A DNA stretch of 64,000 nt from an uncultured Flavobacteriales bacterium (GTDB lineage: Bacteria > Bacteroidota > Bacteroidia > Flavobacteriales_G > Salibacteraceae), in contig CALSRJ010000001.1 of the NCBI GenBank assembly GCA_943788725.1, forward strand, positions 618,861 through 682,860, read 5' to 3'. How positions within the stretch are numbered: position 1 is the first letter of the stretch; every line of letters starts with the position of its first letter. The translations under genes were made by a program, and so were the position numbers. The notes under the pieces were generated by a model, which was not told the origin of the DNA, made no database searches, and saw only the letters and a list, made by a program, of their open reading frames with translations. This document shows, one piece after another, positions 36,463-43,791 of the stretch.

Positions 36463-37899
36463 ATGTCTCGGTTGTCGGTCTTGAGTGAATTTGTGCGCGG
36501 ACAGATCTACTACAACCTTCCTGGAGACTATAAAGAAGGCATACTGGTATATGCGTTTGATGAGGATGGAAACACCGTAGACTCTACCTACACCGATGGA
36601 AAAGGAAACTTCACATTCAAGCGCCTCTCTCAATCCGAGAATTTCTCGATTCGAGTGATGGACGAGGACGATGAAGGATTGAAAGTAGCCCTGTTCAACT
36701 ATGATGGCTCGTTTAAAGGCCTGCTCTTCTTGGATGAAAACATGTCGTTCCAATATTCCAAGATCATCCTCGAAGCAGCATCAGAACTTGAAGGAGAGTA
36801 TGCCAAGGATCAAAGCCAGGGCCTATTGCGAGGTCAGATCTATCAAAAACTACCCGGAGACTATCACGAAGGATTAACCGTGTATGCATTTGATGCAGAT
36901 GGAAACCTCATCGACGTTGCTGAAGTAGATGAGGAGGGCAATTTTGAATTCACCAAACTGACCAAAGAACAAGACTACCTGTTCAAATTCTCTGAAGAAG
37001 ACACCGAATTCAACATTTCCTTGTTGGGCGCCGACGGAAAGGAATTCGACAAAGCCTACGCCACAGATGGGGAATGGAAGTACAGCAAGCTTCAATTAGA
37101 CCAATACAAACTGCGTGCACTAGCAGCAAAAGACGACGGCACAGGGAGCAATGCGATGGACGACTACTTGAAGTCCACACGGAAACCACTTCCTATGGTT
37201 GGAGAGAATACCATGTCGTACGGATTTAGAAGTGCAGAAATTTCTGAAGCAGATCAAGCTCACCTCGATGCGCTGGTGCAGGTATACGAGGACAACCCCC
37301 AAGCGGTCATATCCATCCAATCTTACAGCGACCCTGCGGAAAGTACCGGAAATGGCTCCTACAGCGCACTTCGCTCCGCCGCAATTGCTCAATACCTGCA
37401 TAGCAAAGGAGTTCCAGTCACAAACATGCAAGTCGCGAATTGGGAAGCACAAAAACAAATAGTAGATTGTTCGGTGCAGCCTTGCTCAGACGAAGAACGC
37501 AGCATGAATCGAAGGGCAAACGTCGAAATCCTCGCTCCCGAATTGATTCAACCAGCTCCAGATTTTGTTTTTGAGTACAATTTCAATCAATGGCGATTGG
37601 ATCAAAATGCAGAAAATGTCGCTTTCCATTTGCTAAAAACACTCAAGGAAAATAGCGGTTCAGAAGTGCGTATCGAAGGATTTACAGACACCTGGGGCTC
37701 GTTCTCGAGCAACGATCGTATTTCAGAATTAAGGGCCAAAAACCTACAAAACCTTCTGATTTCCAAAGGCGTAGACGAAAGCAAAATCACCATGGAAAGC
37801 CATGGGGAGATCATACCGACTGGAGATTGCATTCTCTTTTATCCATGTCCAGTGAGTGCCAGAACACAGAACCACAGGGTTGAAGTCAGGCTCAAGTGA
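36463..37899 (+). CDS. OmpA-family protein without signal peptide, tandem domains
   Basis: A 478-residue protein starting MSRLSVLSEFVRGQIYYNL, with no signal sequence. In-frame stops lie just upstream (36445 and 36454), so no longer frame exists. Two ~115-residue repeats (~11-105 and ~125-220) share GQIY-LPGDY-EG-VYAFD-DGN-D and GNF-F-KL. Two OmpA-like domains follow: one at ~250-355 with IQSYSDP and NRRANVEIL, one at ~365-478 with IEGFTDTWGS and NHRVEVRL. OmpA domains bind peptidoglycan in the periplasm, which requires export, so a lost 5' part is suspected. The repeats match a segment of the PD40/OmpA protein at 45213, suggesting it is the tail of such a protein. Confidence 0.75.
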   Translation: MSRLSVLSEFVRGQIYYNLPGDYKEGILVYAFDEDGNTVDSTYTDGKGNFTFKRLSQSENFSIRVMDEDDEGLKVALFNYDGSFKGLLFLDENMSFQYSKIILEAASELEGEYAKDQSQGLLRGQIYQKLPGDYHEGLTVYAFDADGNLIDVAEVDEEGNFEFTKLTKEQDYLFKFSEEDTEFNISLLGADGKEFDKAYATDGEWKYSKLQLDQYKLRALAAKDDGTGSNAMDDYLKSTRKPLPMVGENTMSYGFRSAEISEADQAHLDALVQVYEDNPQAVISIQSYSDPAESTGNGSYSALRSAAIAQYLHSKGVPVTNMQVANWEAQKQIVDCSVQPCSDEERSMNRRANVEILAPELIQPAPDFVFEYNFNQWRLDQNAENVAFHLLKTLKENSGSEVRIEGFTDTWGSFSSNDRISELRAKNLQNLLISKGVDESKITMESHGEIIPTGDCILFYPCPVSARTQNHRVEVRLK

Positions 37900-37989: not shown

Positions 37990-37997
37990 TACCTTTG
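37990..37997 (+). promoter_or_regulatory. Candidate -7 box of the DUF4154-TPR-SpoIIE operon
   Basis: TACCTTTG matches TAnnTTTG exactly, 13 bp before GTG 38011. A TTG lies at 37977 but too close for a standard -33 box. Confidence 0.5.
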
Positions 37998-38010: not shown

Positions 38011-38544
38011 GTGAAGAAGTTATTCCTGCTGATATCGATCGTATTTGGATTGACATTGATGTCTTATGGACAGACGTCGATGAACACGATGAACACGCGT
38101 GCGAAATTCAAATCGATGTACATCCTGAACTTTACGAAGTACACGGAATGGCCAGCGGCGTATAAGCAAGGTGATTTTGTGATAGGCGTTGTCAATGACG
38201 ACGACCTCGCAAAGAACTTGGAAGCCATTTCCAAGACCAAAAAAATCAATAGCCAGAACCTCATTGTAAAGCGTTTCGCGAGTGCGGACCAAGTGACCAA
38301 GTGTCACCTGATCTATATCGCTGGTAAATCTGCTGGCGAAGTAGAACCCTACGCTGAGAAATCACGACAATTCAATTGCCTCATTGTAACCGAAGGAAAT
38401 GGAATGATCAACGGCATTGCCGCGATCAATTTCGTTGTGGTAGGGGCACAATTAAAATATGAAATGAATAAGGCCCTGTTCAAATCGCAGGACCTTATCG
38501 TTAGTAACACGTTAGAAAATTTAGCAACGAAAGTGATTAATTAA
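38011..38544 (+). CDS. DUF4154 (YfiR-like) periplasmic protein
   Basis: A 177-residue exported protein starting at GTG 38011 with signal peptide MKKLFLLISIVFGLTLMSYG. It matches DUF4154/YfiR: KSMYILNFTKYTEWPA near residue 35, FVIGVVNDDDLAKNL, CHLIYIAGKS, LIVTEGNGMINGIAAINFV and KALFKSQDLIVSN at the end. In Pseudomonas, YfiR is a periplasmic inhibitor of the cyclase YfiN. Here it heads a three-gene operon with a TPR protein (4-bp gap) and a membrane SpoIIE phosphatase, with no cyclase in view, so it may sense an envelope signal for the phosphatase. That role is inference. Confidence 0.88.
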   Translation: MKKLFLLISIVFGLTLMSYGQTSMNTMNTRAKFKSMYILNFTKYTEWPAAYKQGDFVIGVVNDDDLAKNLEAISKTKKINSQNLIVKRFASADQVTKCHLIYIAGKSAGEVEPYAEKSRQFNCLIVTEGNGMINGIAAINFVVVGAQLKYEMNKALFKSQDLIVSNTLENLATKVIN

Positions 38545-38548
38545 CCAA

Positions 38549-39451
38549 ATGAAACGACTCGTAATCATAGCGGTTGTCTTGTTCATGATGATACCAGGAG
38601 GGCTAAGGGCTCAGCTCGATCCGGTGTCTTTAGCGCTGCGTGCGTATCAGAACAAAGACTTACCCAAAGCAAGGGAGCTCATTGAAATTGCCGTAGGCGA
38701 TGACAATTTTAATGGAATCACCAAGACTTGGTATTTCCGTGGTTATATCTACAAAGACCTTTTCAAGGAGTCGAAGGACGTCAAGATCAAAAAGGAATCT
38801 TTTGGATACCGCGAAGATGCAATCGAGTCATATATGAAAGCCGTCGCTCTCGAGCCCCAAGGAGAGTTAGTTGAAGACTGCTTTAATTCATTGAAATATT
38901 TGTCATCGACGTTGTACAATGATGCAGCGTTCGCTCTCGACTCTAACAACTTCACGACTGCCCAGGAGTTGTTTGATCGCTATAAGGAGATCATCGCCAT
39001 GACAAATCCTGATATGGATATGACGCCGCGTACGATAGAGTTTAACCTCTACAAAGCGTCTAAATACTCACAGCTCTTCGACAATCCTCGAGAAGGATAC
39101 GACAAAGAAGAAATGGGACAACAGGTTATCGCTGTCTATAAAAAAGTGCTTAACCTGGATAGCAACAACATCAGTGCGAACTACAACATGGCTATTCACT
39201 TCTATAACCAAGGAGTAAATATCATCGAGAACATGGATTATGAGCAAGACTTTGAAACGCTTTTTATGATCCAAGCGCAGGTGATGGACCTATTTGGCGC
39301 GGCGCTGCCATACATGAAGAAAGCTTATAAACTCAATCCTTACAGAAAGGAAACGCTGGTAGGACTTTCCGGTATCTACTATGGTCTCAATGATATTGAG
39401 ACTTCGGAGAGGTATCAGCAAGAGTTGAAGAAGTTGGACAGCAACCAATAA
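38549..39451 (+). CDS. Exported TPR protein
   Basis: A 300-residue protein with signal peptide MKRLVIIAVVLFMMIPGGLRAQ and helical repeats of the TPR type throughout: ALRAYQNKDLPKARELI (~28), WYFRGYIYKDL, AIESYMKAVALEPQG (~90), NYNMAIHFYNQG and AALPYMKKAYKLNP (~250). It would act in the periplasm as a protein-binding scaffold. It sits between the DUF4154 gene (4-bp gap) and the SpoIIE phosphatase (adjacent), which suggests it links the periplasmic sensor to the membrane phosphatase. Confidence 0.85.
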   Translation: MKRLVIIAVVLFMMIPGGLRAQLDPVSLALRAYQNKDLPKARELIEIAVGDDNFNGITKTWYFRGYIYKDLFKESKDVKIKKESFGYREDAIESYMKAVALEPQGELVEDCFNSLKYLSSTLYNDAAFALDSNNFTTAQELFDRYKEIIAMTNPDMDMTPRTIEFNLYKASKYSQLFDNPREGYDKEEMGQQVIAVYKKVLNLDSNNISANYNMAIHFYNQGVNIIENMDYEQDFETLFMIQAQVMDLFGAALPYMKKAYKLNPYRKETLVGLSGIYYGLNDIETSERYQQELKKLDSNQ

Positions 39452-39463
39452 GTGCAGATCAAT

Positions 39464-41257
39464 ATGTTCTCACATTTCAGTATTGGACGGAAGATCAGTT
39501 TAGGCTTTGCGGTAGTGATCCTCTCTACGATTGTGGCATTCTATATTACGAACCGAACGTTCGTCAATAGCCAGAAAATCAACGAGGAGATTACCAATAA
39601 CCATACTCCTTCCATCGCGAAACTTGAAGAGCTCAAGTTGATGATCGTACGATCAAAAATGCTCATCAATAACTGGGTATACCTGTCAAGTCCTCCCGAA
39701 AATGAAGACAAGGTGGCACTTAATCGTCTCACCATTTCAGAGTACCCTAAGCTCAAGATCGATATTGAAACGCTTGCCAAACAATGGCAAGACAGCACGA
39801 AGGCCAGTCTGGCGCCTCTCTTCGAAAACATTGAAATGCTTTGGTCAAACCATGATATCGTGAAGCAAACGCTCAGCGGTATGGAGTCGTACAATGACCC
39901 TTTCAATCAGTTCACGGCTAATTCGATGGTAGAAGATGGAGGAGACATCTACCTTTTGACGGATGATATTTTGACCATGCTCAACGTACTCATCGATCAG
40001 AAAAAGAATACCACTGAAATCATTACAGCAGAGATGATTGACTCCTTTCAAGGAGTACGCATGCTGATTAAAAACCTAGGAATCGGCCTCACGATAGCGG
40101 GCGTCATCATTGCATTCTTGACCACAAGAACGATCGTTTCGCCGGTTCGTAAGCTCCGATTAATCCTGTTAGATCTATCCAAGGGTATCTTCCCGAAAAG
40201 CTGGATCAACACCAGAGGTGATGAGATCGGTGAAATGGCGAATGCACTGGAAACCGTTGTAGCTGGACTTCAAAGCACGAAAGACTTCGCGATTGCCGTG
40301 GGTTCTGGTGGATACAATACAGAGTACACTCCCCTCTCCGACCAGGATGAACTAGGGCAATCACTCTTGGTGATGCGCAAGAACCTCAAGGAGTACAGCG
40401 AGGACATGGAAGAAAAAGTACGCGAAAGAACAGCCGAGGTCGTACGTCAAAAAGAAGAAATCGAGAAGCAGAGCGAGCAGATCGCCGAACTTTACGAGCA
40501 GGTAAAAGACAGTATCCTCTACGCCAAGCGCATCCAAGAGGCCATCTTGCCCTCTCGAGAAGAAATCAATGCTTCGTTGCAAAATAGCATGGTTCTTTTC
40601 CGACCAAAAGACATCGTGAGTGGCGACTTTTATTGGTTTACGGAGAAGCCAGACCGCGTTATCATCGCTGCTGCTGACTGCACTGGGCACGGAGTACCCG
40701 GAGCCCTCATGTCGATGATCGGATCCTCGTTGCTCAACGAGATCGTGAATGAAAAAGGGATCACGCAGCCCAACGAAATTTTGCTTGCGCTCAAGCATGG
40801 CGTCATCAAGGCGCTGAATAAGCACCCATCTTCCGACCAGACGAAGGATGGTATGGACATCGGTATTTGCTCCATTCCTAAGAAAGGGAATAAAATCGAT
40901 TTCGCAGGTGCCAACAATCCATTATGGATGGTCCGCGACGGCGAAATCATCGACTTCCGTGGCGACCGTCAACCGGTTGGTATTTACGGTGACAACCTCG
41001 ACACACCTTACACTAATCACACCATAGACATTCAGGATGGCGATAGCGTGTATATCTTCTCCGATGGCTACGCGGATCAGTTCGGCGGACCTAGAGGCAA
41101 GAAATTCAAGTACAGCCAATTCAAAAAGCTGTTGGTGCAGATCAACAATGAAACGATGGAGAGCCAGCGTGACACTTTGAATACCCGCATCGAAGAATGG
41201 ATGGGAGATCAGGAAGAGCAGATCGACGACATCCTTGTCGTAGGCATCCGCTTCTAG
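39464..41257 (+). CDS. Membrane PP2C-type phosphatase: sensor, HAMP, SpoIIE domain
   Basis: A ~597-residue protein; I choose ATG 39464 (MFSHFSIGRKISLGF) over GTG 39452, which directly follows the TPR stop. Helix 1 (~11-30) and helix 2 (~200-222) enclose a four-helix-bundle sensor in the periplasm. A HAMP region follows (~223-275; IVSPVRKLRLILLDL), then a coiled coil (~310-355, VRERTAEVVRQKEEIEKQ), then the SpoIIE/PP2C domain to the end. Metal-site motifs are VSGDFYWF, AAADCTGHGVPGALMS, FAGANNPLW and IFSDGYADQFGG. SpoIIE-type phosphatases usually act on anti-sigma-factor antagonists; none is encoded in this window. Confidence 0.92.
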   Translation: MFSHFSIGRKISLGFAVVILSTIVAFYITNRTFVNSQKINEEITNNHTPSIAKLEELKLMIVRSKMLINNWVYLSSPPENEDKVALNRLTISEYPKLKIDIETLAKQWQDSTKASLAPLFENIEMLWSNHDIVKQTLSGMESYNDPFNQFTANSMVEDGGDIYLLTDDILTMLNVLIDQKKNTTEIITAEMIDSFQGVRMLIKNLGIGLTIAGVIIAFLTTRTIVSPVRKLRLILLDLSKGIFPKSWINTRGDEIGEMANALETVVAGLQSTKDFAIAVGSGGYNTEYTPLSDQDELGQSLLVMRKNLKEYSEDMEEKVRERTAEVVRQKEEIEKQSEQIAELYEQVKDSILYAKRIQEAILPSREEINASLQNSMVLFRPKDIVSGDFYWFTEKPDRVIIAAADCTGHGVPGALMSMIGSSLLNEIVNEKGITQPNEILLALKHGVIKALNKHPSSDQTKDGMDIGICSIPKKGNKIDFAGANNPLWMVRDGEIIDFRGDRQPVGIYGDNLDTPYTNHTIDIQDGDSVYIFSDGYADQFGGPRGKKFKYSQFKKLLVQINNETMESQRDTLNTRIEEWMGDQEEQIDDILVVGIRF

Positions 41258-41280: not shown

Positions 41281-43692
41281 TTACAGTTCGATGATCAGTC
41301 CGATCGAAGGCAATAGCGTGCCTGAGAAGTTGGATACTTCCTTCATTAGGTAGCGAGAATGATCATTCGGGTCGTCCAAAGCAATTCCATTGTCATCGCG
41401 CTCTACCGTAATGAACGGAGCCAGCGGCGCCTGATAGTTGTATGCGTTCTGAACATCCATGTATACATTCAATGACCATTTGTTGAAGTAGAATCGCTTG
41501 TCCAGGCGAACATCCAATTGGTGAACCGCCCCGTTGCGCTCCGCGTTCAGTTGGTCGTAGTCAAACAAGCCTACGCCACGCACATCCCAAGTAGATCGTA
41601 CAGATGAAAGTTCCGTGTCAAACGGAGTGTAGGGCGCCCCTCCTAAGTACCTGAAGCGCACACCTACTTCCCAATCACCTTTGAATTTCTTCCCCCCTGT
41701 CAAGGTTAGTATATTCCCATTGTCCCATGCAGATGGCAGAAAGGTGCCATTCTTGTCTTGAAACTCGCTCACGACCCATGTATAGGCCACAATTCCATAG
41801 AACCCCTTAAACAACTTCTGTTGGGCTAAGAATTCAACCCCATAGGCCCGTCCATCTGAAGAAGAAGTAACGGGTTCATTTCCAATCACGCCAAAATCAC
41901 TGCCAAGGTTGGCCAATGAAATGCTGTCGCGTAAAAGGAATGGATAGTTCGAATACGCCTTATAAAATCCCTCTATCGTAATCTTCGTGTTCGTTCCAGG
42001 CAGGTATTCCAATCCCAAAACCGCATGATCGCAGCCTATGTAGGTGACGCCGCTACCCTTATTTACAAGCCTGTCCTCGCTGTCGCGGTAGCCCAGTACC
42101 GTATAAGGAGGTAATTGATAGAATCGTCCCAGGCTCGCATTGACACTCCAACGTGGCGCCAATGTATAAGAAGCAGCCAGTCGAGGTGAAAGCTGATCAA
42201 GTGGATTCAACATCTCCTCATCGAAATCGCTGAAATCCGTTCTCAATCCCAAGGAAAGTTTCAGTCGCTCATTATACAACCCCTTAGAAAGCTGAGAGAA
42301 TACCGAGTATTTGTTGAGGTTGAGTCTTGAGTCGAAATCGATGATCAAGTCTTGACCATCGGTAGTAACGATTTTATTATACGTAGCATTGGTATACAAG
42401 GCGCTCTCATAGCCCACACCTACATTCCATTTCCATCCTTTGTCTCTCCAGGTATGCTCCAAACGCAGTTTGTTCTCAATCTCTTGGCTCTGGTAGTCCA
42501 GTATTTTGTTCGCCTCCACTGACGCATCGTTGTCTTGGTACTTGATGGCAGTATTGTTTAGATGGTTGCGACTTACAACCACCTGTTGAAAGCTCTTATC
42601 CCCAAAGTGCTTGTAGCTTGCGCCGAGGGTGTAATTCCACTGTTCATTGGAGGCAATGTTTCCGAGGATATACCGGTTTCGCTCAAGCGTCTCGGCATCC
42701 TCTACTCCGTCGTTGGCGCCTTGGTTCAGTTCAAATTGATCCAATGCACCTAGGCCGATGAAGGATATCTCATTCTTAGCGTTGATCTGCGTTTTAACCT
42801 TGAACTGACTGTCGTTATAAATAGGCAGGAAAGGCAGTTTTAAGACACTAAACAGAAACTGCAAATACGAGCGTCGAACAGAGAAAATATAGGTGGTCTT
42901 TTTACCCAAAGGACCATCGAGGGTCAAGCCATAGTCCGAGCTACCCACCGTAAAGTTCGCCTTGATACCCTCCGGGTTTCCATCTTTTTGAGAGAAATCA
43001 AATACAGAGCTTAACGCATTGCCTCGATTAGCTGGGAAAGCTCCCGAATAAAATTCCACCTCATTGATGAAATTCACATTGATAAGTCCTACTGGACCGC
43101 CAGAAGCCCCTTGCGTAGCAAAGTGGTTGATATTGGGCACTTCCACGCCATCCAAATAAAATCGATTTTCATTCGGAGCACCTCCACGGATGATAATGTC
43201 ATTTCGAAATGAAGGTGAGGAAGCTACACCAGGCAAGGATTGGATTACCCGACTGATGTCACGGTTACCTCCCGGATTCCTTTCAATCTCTGAAACACCG
43301 ATGGTGCGCATTGAAACAGGCGCCTCTTCCTTCTTGCTAAAGGGGGATGCCACGATTTCAACCGCGTCAAGCAGCTGGGCATCCTCCGACATCTCAATGT
43401 TCACATAAACAGGACGGTTATTAAACGTCTGAATCTCATAGACTGTCGACTTACTGAATCCGAGAGAAGAAGCCTCAAGGTTGTAGAGTTTTGGCTCCAA
43501 ACCCGTGATCTCATAATTGCCATCGAGGTCAGTCGAAGCTCCAAGCGTAGTTCCTTGAATGACAACATTCGCAAATGGAATTGGATCGTTATTGATCGGA
43601 TTAAAGACCTTGCCTTTGATGACTCCGTTTTGTGCGAAAGCACTGAGAGCAAAAGAAAGTACAAGTGAAATGGTGGTGATGGTCGTTCTCAT
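41281..43692 (-). CDS. TonB-dependent outer-membrane receptor
   Basis: A ~803-residue receptor. ATG 43692 gives MRTTITTISLVLSFALSAFA, a signal peptide; the open frame to 43788 adds a basic head. Domains: carboxypeptidase-regulatory-like beta domain ~24-105 (GVIKGKVFNPINNDPIPFANV), plug ~120-230 (VIQSLPGVASSPSF, IIRGGAPNENRFYLDGVEVPN), then a 22-strand barrel ending FSGTLLPSIGLIIEL. It imports a ligand across the outer membrane using TonB energy. There is no SusD partner next to it, so it is probably not a classic glycan utilisation pair. It converges with the SpoIIE phosphatase gene. Confidence 0.92.
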   Translation of the reverse strand: MRTTITTISLVLSFALSAFAQNGVIKGKVFNPINNDPIPFANVVIQGTTLGASTDLDGNYEITGLEPKLYNLEASSLGFSKSTVYEIQTFNNRPVYVNIEMSEDAQLLDAVEIVASPFSKKEEAPVSMRTIGVSEIERNPGGNRDISRVIQSLPGVASSPSFRNDIIIRGGAPNENRFYLDGVEVPNINHFATQGASGGPVGLINVNFINEVEFYSGAFPANRGNALSSVFDFSQKDGNPEGIKANFTVGSSDYGLTLDGPLGKKTTYIFSVRRSYLQFLFSVLKLPFLPIYNDSQFKVKTQINAKNEISFIGLGALDQFELNQGANDGVEDAETLERNRYILGNIASNEQWNYTLGASYKHFGDKSFQQVVVSRNHLNNTAIKYQDNDASVEANKILDYQSQEIENKLRLEHTWRDKGWKWNVGVGYESALYTNATYNKIVTTDGQDLIIDFDSRLNLNKYSVFSQLSKGLYNERLKLSLGLRTDFSDFDEEMLNPLDQLSPRLAASYTLAPRWSVNASLGRFYQLPPYTVLGYRDSEDRLVNKGSGVTYIGCDHAVLGLEYLPGTNTKITIEGFYKAYSNYPFLLRDSISLANLGSDFGVIGNEPVTSSSDGRAYGVEFLAQQKLFKGFYGIVAYTWVVSEFQDKNGTFLPSAWDNGNILTLTGGKKFKGDWEVGVRFRYLGGAPYTPFDTELSSVRSTWDVRGVGLFDYDQLNAERNGAVHQLDVRLDKRFYFNKWSLNVYMDVQNAYNYQAPLAPFITVERDDNGIALDDPNDHSRYLMKEVSNFSGTLLPSIGLIIEL

Positions 43693-43740
43693 ACGAGGCA
43701 AAGGAACAACGATTCGCTTGTTTTGTTCACGCAATTCTGC

Positions 43741-43771
43741 TTTTTGCCTTGCTGAGTTTAATGTAAGTTTG
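43741..43771 (+). promoter_or_regulatory. Promoter of the E2 acyltransferase gene
   Basis: TTTTTG at 43741-43746 and TAAGTTTG at 43764-43771 are separated by 17 bp, fitting the Bacteroidota -33/-7 promoter well. The -7 box is 20 bp before ATG 43792. Confidence 0.65.
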
Positions 43772-43791
43772 CAGCCCGAAAAATTCACGAC

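Follow-up and report, generated by a model that had tools for sequence, protein, structure and literature searches.

Three adjacent genes of the window (the whole 64,000-nucleotide stretch of DNA analysed here) form a conserved operon encoding a protein with the YfiR fold, a TPR protein and a membrane phosphatase. We consider it fairly likely that this operon is an envelope sensor, in which the YfiR-fold and TPR proteins control a SiaA-type phosphatase that acts on SiaC.

Organization of the locus

Three ORFs were confirmed on the + strand at 38011-38544, 38549-39451 and 39452-41257. The GTG start of the DUF4154 gene is common to close orthologues. The third ORF opens at a GTG at 39452 (601-aa reading); because its orthologues begin with MFSHF, the start was placed at ATG 39464, which probably gives a protein of 597 aa. 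The genes are thus tightly packed, at the place and on the strand given in the preliminary description, but its near-zero second gap is probably one of 12 bases. The gene downstream (41281-43788, TonB-receptor type) is convergent and the three genes therefore constitute a closed unit. The features are as follows.

37990..37997, + strand: TACCTTTG, candidate promoter element (read from the sequence)
38011..38544, + strand: DUF4154 (YfiR-fold) protein, predicted to be secreted, 177 aa, GTG start (PF13689, model fold)
38549..39451, + strand: TPR protein, predicted to be secreted, 300 aa (PF13181/PF13414, conserved family alignment)
39464..41257, + strand: SiaA-type membrane phosphatase, 597 aa, probable start (PF00672, PF07228, NF038263 below cut-off, orthologue start)
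39494..40138, + strand: predicted TM1 (aa 11-29), periplasmic four-helix-bundle sensor (aa 30-197) and TM2 (aa 198-225) (hydropathy, model)
40121..40273, + strand: HAMP domain (PF00672, E=2.4e-6, residues 224-274 of the 601-aa reading)
40571..41254, + strand: PP2C/SpoIIE phosphatase domain (PF07228, 6k4e match)

The octamer upstream of the first gene resembles TAnnTTTG, the -7 promoter element of Bacteroidota; a -33 element is not clearly recognizable at this site. An OmpA-domain gene lies directly upstream of the operon in much of the family and is absent in some genus-mates. In the window, the OmpA-domain ORF (36463-37899) corresponds to residues 867-1341 of a 1341-aa relative (87.6% identity; L125 8234-12259, in a close relative), has no signal-like N-terminus and looks like a 5'-truncated remnant. 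This gene was considered as an analogue of YfiB and rejected, the window copy being truncated and the gene missing or different in other families.

The two predicted periplasmic proteins

The first protein matched PF13689, the YfiR/HmsC family, with E=1.6e-26 and 93.5 bits, above the curated cut-off of 24.9. A search of PDB sequences with the DUF4154 alignment did not return YfiR, even at E 10, and folds were therefore compared. With the DUF4154 model (pLDDT 89.7), the top 15 PDB matches of Foldseek were all YfiR (E 1.9e-7); VIA aligned the model to YfiR with Z 16.6 and an rmsd of 2.8 over 145 residues, and the best match other than YfiR reached Z 12.9. As modelled, the DUF4154 protein has the YfiR fold. 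A hydrophobic N-terminal segment was present in 75 of 78 relatives, as judged by hydropathy, and the protein is predicted to be secreted to the periplasm. The second protein matched the TPR families PF13181/PF13414 in Pfam and carries a signal-like N-terminal helix; by hydropathy, 78 of its 80 relatives have a hydrophobic N-terminal segment and no internal TM. The preliminary description of a periplasmic YfiR-like protein and a periplasmic TPR protein agrees with these predictions.

The membrane phosphatase

Hydropathy placed two membrane regions around ~170 extracytoplasmic residues in the third protein, which matched HAMP (PF00672, E=2.4e-6) and SpoIIE (PF07228, E=3.7e-18) in Pfam. In the model of the whole protein (pLDDT 79, pTM 0.44) the sensor is all-helical, with helices at 7-73, 81-105, 116-136 and 161-239. 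The best non-catalytic matches were bundles of the chemoreceptor type, for example the MCP2201 LBD (VIA Z 16.4, rmsd 1.9, 130 residues), a modest score since helical bundles readily reach such values. As VIA covered only the matches of Foldseek itself, and the sensor was modelled within the whole phosphatase rather than alone, its closest fold is no more than indicative; the prediction is a four-helix bundle rather than a PAS domain.

Among the aligned relatives, the acidic residues of the metal site and the DCTGHGVPGA motif show little or no variation. The PP2C half matched the SiaA-PP2C structure 6k4e with E=2e-59 in hmmsearch (2e-5 for the next structure) and with VIA Z 29.2, rmsd 2.2 over 240 residues (next Z 21.3). 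The SiaA model NF038263 gave E=3e-69 and 234 bits, below its curated full-length cut-off of 700 bits; the alignment covers only the end of HAMP, the coiled coil and PP2C, and the sensor half stays outside it, which explains the missed cut-off. By sequence and model, the catalytic half is a SiaA-type PP2C with intact metal residues. The helical sensor, HAMP and SpoIIE domain with intact metal motifs of the earlier reading were thus all recovered.

Conservation of the operon and gene fusions

DUF4154 is present in 21 of the 41 genomes of the order. Within the genus, the three-gene operon is present wherever the locus could be read; it also occurs in two further genera of the family and in additional families of the order, and L078 shows it at one locus of a different family of the class. 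When the genome collection was searched with the TPR alignment, 93 relatives were obtained, of which 80, all titled as Bacteroidota groups, were kept; 75 of these 80 have DUF4154 as the gene immediately before and the phosphatase as the gene immediately after the TPR gene, all on one strand, so that the order is not a trait of a single strain. All 30 short loci from the class sample were complete as far as they reach, and 39 of 40 further loci carried the three genes together: 37 by a strict rule, plus L306 and L308, counted despite an overlap of the DUF4154 and TPR frames larger than this rule permits. Gaps between the genes of orthologous operons range from -16 to +28 bases, and order and tight spacing hold where identity to the window drops to 25-38%. 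With the three genes together in 75/80 and 39/40 loci, a chance arrangement is excluded.

DUF4154 and SpoIIE are also fused in a single frame in five genomes of the order (L136, L137, L154, L155, L161). Where a copy has a clear signal-like segment, hydropathy indicates a layout of signal, DUF4154, long linker, one TM and SpoIIE. These fusions tie a YfiR-type input, predicted to be periplasmic, physically to a phosphatase output and, together with the conserved operon, support the wiring of a YfiR-like input to a phosphatase put forward in the preliminary description.

Elsewhere in the phylum, the usual neighbours or fusion partners of DUF4154 are HAMP histidine kinases. L072 and L141 were rejected as DUF4154-phosphatase pairs, as they contain no SpoIIE (Pfam HAMP/GAF or GAF/PAS) and only the sensor/HAMP half matches. 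Their DUF4154 neighbours (L072 6568-9081, L141 6544-8707) share the sensor half of the phosphatase and end in GAF/PAS or GAF (L141 with HAMP); by sequence, they may be further outputs for the same DUF4154 input.

SiaC as candidate substrate of the phosphatase

In P. aeruginosa, experiments have shown that the phosphorylation of SiaC at T68 depends on SiaA and SiaB and that unphosphorylated SiaC acts on a partner (PMC7647112, PMC8457831). In the genome of the window, siaB and siaC lie side by side on contig C3 (L011 8179-8754 and 8787-9167), separate from the phosphatase operon and with no phosphatase gene alongside. The SiaC protein aligns end to end with that of P. aeruginosa (E=4e-18) and keeps the NTSS motif with the phospho-T68, as do nearly all SiaC proteins of the order. 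SiaB adjoins SiaC at all 30 loci of the order, with no phosphatase of the SiaA kind within 1.5 kb, and the operon and the siaBC pair therefore look like complementary halves.

Co-occurrence was assessed in 396 genomes of the class, a TPR protein being assigned to the operon type at E at or below about 1e-36, a cut-off set here. Such a protein was found in 109 genomes from 23 families, the operon being verified gene by gene in part of these. SiaC was present in all 109, compared to 84 of the 287 genomes without the operon-type TPR, which leaves 203 with neither (Fisher 2e-44, from hand-compiled lists and with a statistic that ignores relatedness). Furthermore, siaB, siaC, DUF4154, TPR and phosphatase genes stand in one row at three soil MAG loci, all of one lineage (L261, L263 and L264, the last with an assembly gap inside siaC). 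The preliminary description had left the target open; on these grounds of SiaA likeness, siaBC pair, co-occurrence and one-lineage clustering the STAS-like protein SiaC, rather than a classical anti-sigma antagonist, is now the most likely substrate. Two further SpoIIE proteins encoded in this genome match the SiaA model with 179 and 191 bits, against 234 for the operon phosphatase; SiaC may therefore have further phosphatases or integrate several inputs.

A search of the genome for STAS or HATPase_c partners, as advised in the preliminary description, returned two STAS proteins and one strong HATPase_c_2 kinase match. As these exist, a classical switch has to be weighed, in which either STAS protein would be dephosphorylated by the phosphatase, so releasing a sigma factor held by the HATPase_c_2 kinase, the typical role of SpoIIE phosphatases. 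This is improbable, however, given the specific similarity of the phosphatase to SiaA over RsbU and SpoIIE, the perfect co-occurrence of the operon-type TPR with SiaC (counted for SiaC alone) and the linkage to siaBC in one lineage. Quite improbable is a periplasmic role of the DUF4154-TPR pair of its own, for example in outer-membrane assembly, with mere co-expression of an unrelated phosphatase: TPR and OmpA-type genes are common parts of envelope assembly and an OmpA-domain gene is directly upstream in much of the family, but the DUF4154-SpoIIE fusions and an order kept over many families would be difficult to account for if the genes were not functionally linked.

Several other genes were recorded in the course of these searches. 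A second SiaC copy of the genome (L003, G000:C1:263048-263356) contains an in-frame TAG and its remaining ORF matches only part of the profile; it may be decaying. ORFs of a 134-aa type upstream of DUF4154 in some families were considered as SiaC and ruled out by phmmer. At L013 7650-8747, a gene with two tandem DUF6272 (SiaB-type kinase) domains lies away from any SiaC. A 1106-aa TPR-GAF-PAS-SpoIIE protein (L150 164-3871) adjoins a DUF4154 pair and is directly followed by a SiaC gene; its position suggests another phosphatase type linked to SiaC. An exopolysaccharide-type sugar transferase (L011 9318-10733) is convergent with the siaB-siaC pair, a possible link of the pair to surface polysaccharide. 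Transposase-like gene pairs are repeated at L013 38-1365 and at L015 2236-3563 and 10728-12055, one pair standing on each side of a SpoIIE gene (L015 8464-10392).

Proposed control of the phosphatase

In the proposed mechanism, the YfiR-fold and TPR proteins would be secreted to the periplasm, where both would act on the four-helix domain of the two-TM HAMP phosphatase, DUF4154 perhaps by direct contact with the sensor. HAMP and the coiled coil would relay the signal to PP2C, and this domain would remove the phosphate put by the SiaB kinase on the conserved threonine of SiaC; unphosphorylated SiaC would then bind a downstream target. A search found no GGDEF domain in the genome; the output is therefore probably not c-di-GMP, nor the SiaC target a diguanylate cyclase. 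With a single DUF4154 protein, the genome likewise holds no DUF4154-cyclase pair.

The sign of control is a first guess made by analogy: DUF4154 would inhibit the phosphatase, inhibition being preferred to activation solely on account of the repressor-type fold. Of the YfiR-style inhibitor logic in the preliminary description, the fold and the pairing with a phosphatase are supported, with inhibition and an adaptor role of the TPR protein as putative parts; since the predicted sensor is four-helical and that of YfiN is PAS-type, the YfiR-YfiN contact cannot simply be carried over. Mutual information between DUF4154 or TPR and the sensor, taken against cytoplasmic columns, showed no enrichment at a Neff of about 40.

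A binding-protein-like fold is known to dock on a helical sensor bundle in the case of TorT on TorS. By comparison, DUF4154 could carry an activating ligand, dock on the helical sensor and switch the phosphatase on when ligand-bound. In VIA, the DUF4154 model has matches among substrate-binding proteins as well (3lkv, Z 12.9; 3lft, Z 12.0), and the sensor bundle resembles a ligand-binding chemoreceptor domain, but the nearest fold is YfiR, a repressor, and the strand at its proposed YfiN-binding site is mostly kept. In YfiR, F162-E163-x-N165 is part of the proposed YfiN-binding patch; the counterpart by motif in the window is Y150-E151-x-N153 and, among 91 relatives, 85 have F/Y, 87 have E and 74 have N at these positions. 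An activating ligand carrier is rather unlikely, and control by a YfiR-type inhibitor is retained as the working model.

Relation to known systems

As in YfiBNR of Pseudomonas aeruginosa, the gene of a YfiR-fold protein, here predicted to be secreted, lies next to that of a HAMP protein with two TMs. The operon differs in its SpoIIE/PP2C output, with neither CHASE8 nor GGDEF in the partner, in a predicted four-helix sensor in place of the PAS/CHASE8 domain of YfiN, in the TPR gene between DUF4154 and the membrane protein, and in having no intact gene at the locus for a YfiB-like OmpA-type lipoprotein. The genome resembles SiaABCD of P. aeruginosa in having a PP2C phosphatase with two TMs and HAMP whose catalytic half is a close match to that of SiaA, together with SiaB and a SiaC that carries the T68 motif; in contrast, the phosphatase operon is split from siaBC, DUF4154 and TPR proteins, predicted to be periplasmic, are added, and neither SiaD nor any GGDEF protein was detected in the genome. 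The OMP receptor-DUF4154-CHASE8/HAMP histidine kinase clusters of the phylum also place DUF4154 beside a HAMP membrane signalling protein, but their output is a histidine kinase, no TPR gene stands between, and the sensor is CHASE8 in the one kinase scanned (L062).

Malone et al. presented Yfi as a modular input that feeds GGDEF, GGDEF-EAL, HPT, histidine kinase or MCP outputs (PMC3375315), and the varied outputs beside DUF4154 in the phylum fit this view; PP2C and SpoIIE are not mentioned in that paper. A literature search, whose scope excluded subscription papers and preprints, found no paper on DUF4154 with SpoIIE, or on YfiR with Bacteroidetes and SpoIIE or phosphatase. Within the same scope, a single paper names DUF4154 and two mention YfiR together with SiaA in passing, so that a Yfi-Sia link seems undescribed.

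Combined, these results lead us to lean, with some reserve, towards a widespread and undescribed envelope pathway of Bacteroidia, in which a YfiR-type regulator and a TPR protein would control a SiaA-SiaB-SiaC switch with an output other than c-di-GMP. SiaA responds to membrane perturbation (PMC12834913). In a bacterium without a detectable GGDEF protein, the pathway would offer a testable function for the SiaB-SiaC pair and a candidate route for envelope-stress or surface sensing. The module would join the Yfi input and the Sia output, which have been studied separately in Pseudomonas, in an arrangement that recurs across Bacteroidia.
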